This document shows positions 13,515 through 18,130 of a DNA stretch of 64,000 bases, piece after piece. Each line of letters starts with the position of its first letter. Within the stretch, counting starts at the first letter, position 1. A program made the position numbers and the translations under genes. This DNA comes from an uncultured Rhodospirillaceae bacterium (lineage in GTDB: Bacteria; Pseudomonadota; Alphaproteobacteria; UBA8366). The DNA is taken from assembly GCA_913043025.1 (NCBI GenBank), contig CAJWLM010000006.1, positions 93,757-157,756 on the forward strand. The letters are read 5' to 3'. The notes under the pieces were generated by a model. It was not told the origin of the DNA, did no database searches, and saw nothing but the letters and a program-made list of their open reading frames with translations.

Positions 13515-14813
13515 ATGAAGGATAATTTTGAACAGGCACTGATTATCGCCGTCGAAGAGTCAATGGAGCGTGCCGATCAGTTTTTCCTAGAAATAGAAGA
13601 TAAAACAAAGGATGGACCGGGTGTCACTCGTGTTGCATGGGGCGAAGGAGAACAAATAGGTCACGACATGTGCGAGGCATGGGCAAAGGAACTCGGGATG
13701 GAAATCTCAGGGGACAGTGCCGGCAACCTATATATGACATTTCCAGGCGAAGATCGCGAAGCGCCACCTTTCATAGTAGGCTCCCATATGGACACCGTGC
13801 CCTGCGGTGGCAATTATGACGGTGCCGCCGGAGTTATTTCAGGGCTTGCCGCCATTCAAGCATTTCAAGCAGCCGGCATCACTCCCGCCCAGGATACCAT
13901 TGTGATGGCAATCCGCGCCGAAGAAGCCGGCAGCTGGTTTTCAGGCCTACACGGTGGCCATCTTGGCAGTCGGGCAGCGCTGGGCCGATTTATGGAAGAT
14001 GAATTGAATACCGCCCACCACAACTATTTCGATAAATCACTCTATGAGGTGATTAAGACGGCTGGTTTTGATCCCGACGCTATTGCTAATAATCCGCCCC
14101 ATCTGAACCCGCAAAAAATTAAAGGTTATTGCGAGCTTCATATTGAACAAGGACCTATATTAATAGCTGAGAACAAACCGGTCGGTGTGGTCAGCGGCAT
14201 TCGCGGGAATCGGCGCTTTCGAAATTGCAAAGCATTAGGCGAATACAATCATGGTGGCGCCACTCCACAATCTTTCAGAAAGGACGCAGCACTGGGCGCT
14301 GCTGAATTTCTTTATAAATTTGAGCAGGTGGGTCTACAAACACTGGCCGACGGTGGCGATCTAGTTTTTAATCCCGGAATCATCCATACGGATCCCGATG
14401 TTAACGGGCTTTCCAAGGTTTGTGGTGAAGTCAATTTCACTTTGGACATGCGGAGCGAAAGTTCGGAAATATTAGACACGATGAGAAAAACGGCAGAGGG
14501 TATTGCAGCAGAAATTTCGGAACAAAGGGGCGTTAATGTCGATCTCGGGGCATTTTCGGTATCCGTGCCCGCCGCTCTCCAAAATGATGAGAAGCATCGC
14601 ATGCTAAAGGGCTGTGCCGCGATGGGCCTCGAGGCAACCAGCCTTGCCAGCGGCGGCGGTCACGATGCAGCTGAGTTTCATCACGAGGGCGTACCCTCTT
14701 CAATGATCTTTATTCGTAATGAAAATGGCAGCCATAATCCGGACGAAGCAATGGAGATGGAAGATTTTTGCGAGGGTACAAAAATCCTCGCTTGGATGAT
14801 GGCGACCGCTTAA
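13515..14813 (+). CDS. M20-family Zn-dependent amidohydrolase (hydantoinase/carbamoylase, allantoate amidohydrolase-like)
   Basis: 432 aa; VGSHMDTVPCGGNYDGAAGVISGLAAI, HIEQGPILIAENKPVGVV, ASGGGHDAAEF. Confidence 0.9.
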   Translation: MKDNFEQALIIAVEESMERADQFFLEIEDKTKDGPGVTRVAWGEGEQIGHDMCEAWAKELGMEISGDSAGNLYMTFPGEDREAPPFIVGSHMDTVPCGGNYDGAAGVISGLAAIQAFQAAGITPAQDTIVMAIRAEEAGSWFSGLHGGHLGSRAALGRFMEDELNTAHHNYFDKSLYEVIKTAGFDPDAIANNPPHLNPQKIKGYCELHIEQGPILIAENKPVGVVSGIRGNRRFRNCKALGEYNHGGATPQSFRKDAALGAAEFLYKFEQVGLQTLADGGDLVFNPGIIHTDPDVNGLSKVCGEVNFTLDMRSESSEILDTMRKTAEGIAAEISEQRGVNVDLGAFSVSVPAALQNDEKHRMLKGCAAMGLEATSLASGGGHDAAEFHHEGVPSSMIFIRNENGSHNPDEAMEMEDFCEGTKILAWMMATA

Positions 14814-15180
14814 CAACAATTTGAAAGCAACTAGAACCTGCGTCACAAACCATTGACGTAACTACTTTCGGGGACAGTTCTCTCCTACCGTTCCAAAAGT
14901 GTAACGCTACATTCACTCAAGCGGAAATCTAGCGATCATTGATAAAAATCTAAAATTTGTGGAACTACTCCCACTCAGCGGTTCTAGTGGAAATATAACA
15001 ATTATTTCATAGCGTTATTTTTGCTATGTACCAATTACGTACGAAGTTGTTTTTAGAAAGAAAATCAATGACTTTCTAACTGTCTAATTTTGAACGATTC
15101 CTACCGACTCCATTTTCAAGCTACGTACTGCTCAATGTTGCCCAACTACTGCCTATTAAACCGCATGCAAGAGGCGATAT

Positions 15181-15345
15181 TTAGGCCAACGAAGCAAATT
15201 TATCTGAAAAACAGGCTGCCTCGTCATTAGGAAACAAGTTAGGTGCAAGCTGCGTATCCTCGTCACCGCGTTCGGCGACAAGCCGCGCAACTGTCCCAGT
15301 TTCGAGATTTTCCCGCGTTATGCGCACCAATTTTTCACCTGTCAT
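15181..15345 (-). pseudogene. Small ORF overlapping the mscS stop by one base, probably a truncated gene fragment at a composition boundary
   Basis: ATG at 15345 shares a base with the mscS TGA; MTGEKLVRITRENLETGTVARLVAERGDEDTQLAPNLFPNDEAACFSDKFASLA. Composition shifts to AT-rich inside the ORF. Confidence 0.4.
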
Positions 15346-16244
15346 CAGCCGCCGTTTTCCCCTGCGCTGCCGGACCTGTCGCCCAAATGACGGACAACCC
15401 GCTGCGGGAAGGGAATGTCGATGCCATGGTCATCGAGAACGCCTTTCAGCCGTCGATTCAGGTCCCAGTAAAGATCAAAGAAATCATCGTAGCTTGCATA
15501 GGCGCGAAGCCGGACATTGATGGCGCTGTCGCCATAGCTGACAACCAGAAAGCGTGGTGCCGGATCGGCAAGCACGCGGGAATCGGCAGCCAGACTCATC
15601 AAGGCAGTCTCGGCCGTATCGAGATCGCTGTCATAGCCGATCCCGATATCCAGATCCATGCGCCGTGTGCCATAGCGCGCATGGTTAATGATGTTTGACG
15701 ACCAGATCGACGAGTTCGGAATGCTGATAAACACATTGTCAAACGTATCAATCGTCGTTGTGAACAGACCGATTTCGCGCACCGACCCCGATACACCTGC
15801 AGCCTCCACCCAGTCGCCGATCCGGAACGGCCGCAGGAACAGCAACATCAGGCCCGCGGCAACATTCGACAAGGTGCCTTGCAGCGCCAGGCCGACGGCA
15901 AGGCCGGCCGCACCCAGAACGGCAATAATCGATGTTGTCTCGACCCCGAAATTGCCAAGCGTGACGATGATGGTCAGGGTCAGGCCGGCATAGCGGACCA
16001 ATGCCGCCATAATCGGCACCAATGTCTTGTCCAGCCGGTTCAGCCGTGACAGCCATTCGCCTGTAAGCCGTGACGCCCTGCGCGACAGCCAGATGCCAAG
16101 GGCCAGCGTAAAGATAGCCGCCAGAAAATTCATACCGTAAGCCGTTGCCAGTGCCAGAAATTGCTCGATGGCAATGCTGGACACATTCAAATATGTGGCG
16201 ATATCAGTTGTCAGTTTGCCGTCCATCGTTTCCACACTCACCAT
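15345..16244 (-). CDS. Mechanosensitive ion channel, MscS family
   Basis: VLGAAGLAVGLALQGTLSNVAAGLMLLFLRPFRIGDWVE, TIDTFDNVFISIPNSSIWSSNIINHA. The ORF extends to 16304; ATG at 16244 is a plausible start. Confidence 0.92.
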   Translation of the reverse strand: MVSVETMDGKLTTDIATYLNVSSIAIEQFLALATAYGMNFLAAIFTLALGIWLSRRASRLTGEWLSRLNRLDKTLVPIMAALVRYAGLTLTIIVTLGNFGVETTSIIAVLGAAGLAVGLALQGTLSNVAAGLMLLFLRPFRIGDWVEAAGVSGSVREIGLFTTTIDTFDNVFISIPNSSIWSSNIINHARYGTRRMDLDIGIGYDSDLDTAETALMSLAADSRVLADPAPRFLVVSYGDSAINVRLRAYASYDDFFDLYWDLNRRLKGVLDDHGIDIPFPQRVVRHLGDRSGSAGENGG

Positions 16245-16382
16245 TCCTGCCGGTTGCACTGGCCGCGTGGCAGGCTGTCTTGCGCTTTCGTGGCATTGTG
16301 CCACAAATGCGGGTTCGATGGGTGAAATAAAGCGTTTACAGCGTTGAATTTGTCCGCGGGTTGCACGATATAGTGCCGCGCC

Positions 16383-16571
16383 ATGAATCTGACCGTGTCA
16401 CATTCCTGCGAAATCTTGTGCTGGAGCGTCGGCGACGCACCTCTGGCGCGTGGTGACATGGTGGCCGCTATCGGTAATTTCGATGGTGTTCATCTTGGTC
16501 ACCAGAAGGTGATAGACACAGCGCGCAAGGCAGCAGCCGAACGTGGCCAGCCGATTGGTGTGGAGAAATAA
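16383..16571 (+). pseudogene. ribF: Truncated N-terminal fragment of bifunctional riboflavin kinase/FAD synthetase
   Basis: GDMVAAIGNFDGVHLGHQKVIDTARKAAAERGQPIGV matches the N-terminal nucleotide-binding motif of RibF, then stops abruptly (VEK*). Confidence 0.85.
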
Positions 16572-16576
16572 ATGAG

Positions 16577-18130
16577 TCACTCCCACTCAATAGTCCCTGG
16601 AGGCTTGGATGTAGAATCGTAAGTTACTCGATTGATACCCTTCACCTCATTTATGATTCTAGTCGAAACGTGAGACAGAAAATCATGTTCAAAGGGATAA
16701 AAATCGGCCGTCATCCCGTCAGTCGATGTAACAGCTCGAAGCGCACAAGCGTACTCGTAGCTGCGAGCATCACCCATCACACCAACTGTTTTGACGGGAA
16801 GCAGGACGGCGAAAGCCTGCCAAATTTTATCATAAAGCCCAGCCTTACGGATTTCATCAAGGTATATTGCATCAGCTTGCCGTAACGTATCTAACTTTTC
16901 TTTGGTTATAGATTGACCCGGGATACGTATAGCGAGGCCTGGCCCCGGAAATGGGTGCCTTGCAATAGCAGCTTCCGGCATACCTAGCTCTCGCCCTAGA
17001 GCACGAACTTCGTCCTTAAAGAGATCGCGTAAGGGCTCCACTAATTTCATATTCATGCGATCGGGTAGCCCACCAACATTGTGGTGAGACTTAATTGTTA
17101 CGCTTGGTCCACCATCAAATGAGACAGATTCAATAACGTCGGGATATAGAGTGCCTTGGGCAAGAAATGCAGCTCCTCCAAGCTTTTTTGCCTCCTCTTC
17201 GAATACATCAATAAAAAGGCCGCCAATGATTTTCCGTTTAATTTCCGGGTCAATCACATTTGCTAATTGGCCCAAGAAAAGATCGCTAGCATCACGATGC
17301 ACCAGTGAAATACTGAAGTGATCGCGAAACATCGAAACTACATCGTTAGCTTCATTCAAACGCATGAACCCGTGGTCAACAAGAATGCAAGTGAGTTGTT
17401 CCCCAATCGCCTCATTTAGAAGCACGGCTACAACCGACGAGTCGACGCCACCAGAAAGACCGCAAATAACTCGCCCATCGCCGACCTGATTTTTAATTCG
17501 TGTCGTTACCTCTGACCTGAAGGATGCCATTGACCAATCACCGCTACATCCTGCAATGTTGTGCGTGAAATTTTTCAAAAGCGCGGCTCCACCAGGCGTA
17601 TGAACAACCTCTGGATGGAATTGCACTCCGTAGTACTTGCGATTATCATCCGCAACAATCGCATTGGGAGCCCCTTCGCTAATGCCAACAGCTCTGAATC
17701 CGGGGGGCAAATGCGTAACCCGATCACCATGGCTCATCCAAACCTGGTTAGAGGTACCCACATCCCATGTGTCATCGAGTAAAGTGCATTCTTCTGAAAC
17801 TTCAACCATAGCTTTTCCGAATTCGCGATGGTCATGAGGCTCGACAACACCACCCAATTGATTACACAAAATTTGCTGACCATAACAAATGCCAAAGATT
17901 GGCAAACCACTCTCAAATACAGCCTCAGGAACCCTAGGTGCCTTATCTTGAATTACACTAGAGGGACCTCCTGAGAGAATTACGCCATTGGGCTTATAAG
18001 ACGCGAGATAGATGCGATCGACACGATTGTAAGGATGAATTTCGCAATAAACACCACTTTCACGAACTCGCCGAGCAATGAGCTGTGTAACTTGACTACC
18101 GAAATCAATTATTAAGATATTATCTGTCAT
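16577..18130 (-). CDS. guaA: GMP synthase (glutamine-hydrolysing)
   Basis: 517 aa; [45 protein letters not shown]-terminus [10 protein letters not shown]. Confidence 0.98.

Follow-up and report, generated by a model that had tools for sequence, protein, structure and literature searches.

We found that a piece of chromosomal DNA from the SAR116 clade lies in the genome assembly of an uncultured Rhodospirillaceae bacterium, inside a 1.6-kb insert that starts right behind an intact guaA gene and is bounded by direct repeats of TGAGTGGGAGT containing the core GAGTGGGA. The window is the whole stretch of 64,000 nucleotides that was analysed; all sequences compared are draft assemblies, probably MAGs. 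Our best explanation, to which we give about even weight, is a recent transfer from the SAR116 clade, now lying in a small insert that lacks an integrase and follows the 3' end of guaA, the repeats most likely being att sites of a P4-type integrase. The features are listed in Table 1.

Table 1. Features of the guaA 3'-end insert and its flanks (positions in the window).
Feature	Position	Strand	Evidence or remark
Native left flank, M20-family hydrolase	13515..14813	+	PF01546, E=2e-20; 95% identical protein in same-genus G002, contig C5
Degenerate att-like site TTGAGTGAATGTAG	14907..14920	-	MAFFT alignment opposite G002 TTAAGTGGGAGTAG; weak alone, 3/14 differ from query motif
Distal direct repeat TGAGTGGGAGT, putative att	14967..14977	-	Exact copy in genome
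AT-rich stretch inside insert (38% GC, 267 bp)	14978..15244	.	Without match in searches
Chimeric 54-aa ORF	15181..15345	-	First 34 chaC codons fused to non-SAR116 tail
SAR116-derived block	15245..16562	-	98.0% nt identity to L024, 88% to L025, 77% to L026
Intact mscS-type mechanosensitive channel gene	15345..16304	-	PF00924 (E=5.6e-24), PF21082, PF21088
ribF 5' fragment	16383..16571	+	60 SAR116 codons, then EK and stop; PF06574 positions 6-42 of 158
14-bp linker, SAR116 edge to guaA stop	16563..16576	.	Alignment
Native right flank, intact guaA (GMP synthase)	16577..18130	-	PF00958, PF00117; 94% identical in G002, contig C19
guaA 3'-end direct repeat TGAGTGGGAGT, core GAGTGGGA	16579..16589	-	Exact copy in genome

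The block originates from the SAR116 clade. Its edges were set by alignment to the SAR116 MAG CPC65_55 (L024, NYTO01000001.1), to which 1293 of 1320 positions are identical, and homology to this MAG drops off sharply at both edges. A sequence-only reading of the window had placed sharp steps in composition at about 15.24 and 16.565 kb; the steps are real, and the alignment refined them to 15245 and 16562. The G/C richness that it described, including third positions, was also borne out. GC content of the block is 0.570 (57.0%), 4.6 sd above the window, where the other 1318-bp stretches have a mean of 0.441 (44.1%), an sd of 0.028 and a maximum of 0.504, and GC3 is 0.66 in mscS and 0.58 in the ribF fragment versus 0.40 in guaA and 0.47 in the M20 hydrolase gene. 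The tetranucleotide L1 distance of the block is 0.28 to SAR116 and 0.58 to the host, and none of 92 host windows is closer to SAR116 than to the host. Best match, composition and gene order are thus all those of a SAR116 chromosomal fragment, and two further SAR116-like MAGs (L025 and L026) match it as well. When polarised with L025, the differences between the block and L024 fall on both branches; therefore, the actual donor was probably another SAR116 strain, about 2% away from L024. A phage-borne origin was rejected, as phage records gave weak similarity to mscS alone, in two Salmonella-labelled records.

The gene order in L024 is chaC, mscS, a divergent ribF and ileS, and of these the block retains the whole of mscS, 34 codons of chaC and 60 of ribF. 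That mscS is the one intact gene in the block agrees with the sequence-only reading; its start is probably internal, near 16226. The 54-aa ORF on the left, in which a midway change of character had been noticed, consists of the beginning of chaC (PF04752 in the donor gene, E=1.3e-35) and of sequence foreign to SAR116. On the right, RibF was correctly read as cut after GQPIGV: the fragment is 62 aa and ends GQPIGV-EK*, whereas the SAR116 protein runs on as GQPIGV-VTFDPHP... and the donor gene encodes 327 aa. A full-length ribF is present on another contig of the same genome (G000:C12:62851-63282), and one other mscS-family gene lies elsewhere in this genome. On the window side, mscS has acquired 4 nonsynonymous and 2 synonymous codon changes, which are too few for judging selection. 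Because the gene is intact and the donor's mscS-ribF intergenic region is preserved with it, the transferred mscS may be expressed.

Both flanks are native, since the same-genus genome G002 carries each of them, without the block, on two contigs (DNA identity of 90% for the left flank on C5 and 86% for the right flank on C19). The block was not found in G001 or G002, and no relative was found with the guaA and M20 flanks joined and empty. The right edge does not lie directly on the guaA stop codon (16577-16579), as had been thought, but is separated from it by the linker. At neither join does the flank share sequence with the SAR116 MAG. The AT-rich stretch between the left edge of the block and the distal repeat had no match in 15 genomes, SAR116 and relatives, or in phages, and no special fold was found in it.

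That the block sits within a larger insert bounded by direct repeats is new here. The 3.08-Mb genome holds exactly two copies of TGAGTGGGAGT, which are identical over 11 bp, share one orientation and lie 1612 bp from each other. None of 20000 Markov-shuffled versions of the region contained the sequence. In no other of 385 class-wide genomes does the contig that bears the guaA end show another exact copy close to it. Only G148 and G245 had other close same-strand repeat pairs, and these were rejected as guaA-site parallels because no recognisable guaA end was found there. An 18-mer of the guaA end was not found in viral contigs. GAGTGGGA is experimentally supported as the crossover core for guaA-site P4-type integrases (PMC9376610; PMC7775301): the GIsul2 integrase recombines both GIsul2 itself and the CR2-sul2 unit at GAGTGGGA (PMC9376610), and ICERspD18B inserts at the guaA site (PMC7775301). 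P4-type integrases are described as typical of guaA-site islands in the passage of PMC7775301 that cites Song et al. 2012. The two repeats are most likely att sites and may be functional ones.

No integrase was found in the insert, whose gene contents are chaC', mscS and ribF' only, so the link to guaA islands rests on the site, not on gene content. Elsewhere in the genome there are XerC/D-like genes, a fragment and, on C48, the sole P4-type integrase found, a protein of 413 aa about 25% identical to plasmid relatives. GAGTGGGA was not found near this gene, nor was any tie to guaA. In L126 (G000:C48, 5252-7744), the P4-type integrase gene is followed by a zinc-ribbon primase-like gene and adjoins a large subtilase-like protein; this region belongs to a mobile element of the genome.

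The guaA site of G002 bears different DNA. On C19, guaA is followed by AT-rich foreign DNA where a 144-aa ORF starts, and C5 holds a 93%-identical copy of this AT-rich DNA, with an AT-rich foreign guaA end on one side and the M20 flank on the other. Two near-copies of the site (5147, 5255) lie ahead of the M20 flank on C5, and the degenerate site of the window aligns with the innermost one. G002 and the window have similar sites in matching order, which suggests a common skeleton with differing cargo. This support is provisional, because the end of C5 has a chimeric-looking inverted repeat of guaA fragments. The inverted repeat (L060, G002:C5, 2615-4653) consists of two partial AT-rich guaA genes, 89% identical, near the contig end, and probably reflects either chimeric assembly or an unusual palindrome. 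The AT-rich 144-aa ORF is of secreted type and stands directly behind two different guaA genes (L060, 4657-5091; L061, 1-241) in copies about 93% identical. It belongs to phrog_4895, a family of unknown function, and was not found in viral contigs or, in a weak search without positive control, in 385 alphaproteobacteria.

In the explanation that we prefer, the insert would owe its position or its boundaries to a guaA integrase of P4 type that worked in trans or has meanwhile been lost. Site-specific recombination by itself does not account for the capture, since neither SAR116 edge coincides with a repeat. With one edge 14 bp and the other 267 bp inward of the repeats, the SAR116 piece may have entered by a non-homologous event, in which the fragment chaC'-mscS-ribF' would have become linked to AT-rich element DNA either ahead of integration or afterwards. 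The sequence-only reading had proposed a donor fragment inserted by illegitimate recombination. The donor fragment stands, with both edge genes cut, edges that look illegitimate and SAR116 as the clade; the proposal was incomplete in that the fragment lies within an insert bounded by guaA-core direct repeats. The position of the edges, the missing integrase and a repeat identity of only 11 bp are points against our explanation.

A somewhat unlikely alternative is a false join, in assembly or binning, of co-sampled SAR116 sequence between two host contig ends at a guaA hotspot that is hard to assemble. The G002 assembly is broken at the same place and its C5 end looks chimeric, the guaA contigs of G002 and G005 stop about 0.2 kb beyond the gene (244 bp and 211 bp, respectively), and the SAR116 genome that gives the direct donor match is likewise a MAG. 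The guaA gene of G005, a genome of another genus of the family, lies 211 bp from its contig end (L074, G005:C42, 1-211), like that of G002, and the 3' side of guaA may be a recurrent assembly break. However, such a chimera requires two independent false joins, neither with shared sequence and with correct native DNA on both sides, and false joins of this kind would be expected only rarely from k-mer assemblers. The window has no ambiguous bases, and the direct repeat that frames the block would have to be coincidental. A junction 20-mer was not found in viral contigs, a result that is uninformative for a chimera.

It is unlikely that the insertion is real but came to adjoin guaA by plain end joining or transformation, with the repeats arising by chance or from an unrelated old scar. 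The shortness of the repeat core and the distance of the SAR116 edges from the repeats, with no repeats of their own seen, would fit such an event, but the absence of an exact same-orientation 11-bp copy from all shuffles, the conserved order of similar sites in G002 and the same core at a known hotspot argue against it. Native host DNA of unusual composition is extremely improbable and a native high-GC origin was rejected: nothing but the intact mscS favours it, against 98% SAR116 identity with sharp loss at both edges, a cut ribF while a full-length copy sits elsewhere, and absence of the block from G001 and G002.

If the transfer is real, housekeeping DNA from a named donor has recently moved between lineages of marine alphaproteobacteria at a defined site. 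The guaA hotspot, which is known for large islands that bring their own integrase, would then also take in very small inserts without one in ocean bacteria. Should it instead be an artefact, the case cautions that marine MAGs break and are misjoined at guaA ends. A wider idea, which we regard as quite improbable, is that small, exchangeable cassettes without an integrase and with GAGTGGGA sites at their borders land at the guaA 3' end in this genus, bringing SAR116 mscS DNA in one species and the 144-aa ORF in another. This would imply an integron-like exchange site in marine alphaproteobacteria that could move ordinary chromosomal fragments across lineages.

Compared with the chaC-mscS-ribF-ileS locus of SAR116 (Puniceispirillales) CPC65_55, the window copy shares 1.32 kb with equal gene order and spacing, but its chaC and ribF are truncated and its flanks come from another alphaproteobacterial lineage. 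With guaA-site genomic islands that carry P4-type integrases (GIsul2; ICERspD18B), the insert has in common its position at the intact guaA 3' end, the flanking direct repeats and GAGTGGGA. Unlike these islands, which have their own P4-type integrase and usually alpA, it is only 1.6 kb, lacks integrase, alpA and transfer genes, and bears housekeeping DNA of another alphaproteobacterial clade. The CR2-sul2 unit (PMC9376610) differs in having the CR2 transposase and a resistance gene, whereas the window insert has foreign edges off the repeats. Both, however, are without an integrase of their own; the CR2-sul2 unit is att-bounded and movable in trans at guaA, and the window insert is bounded by putative att sites.
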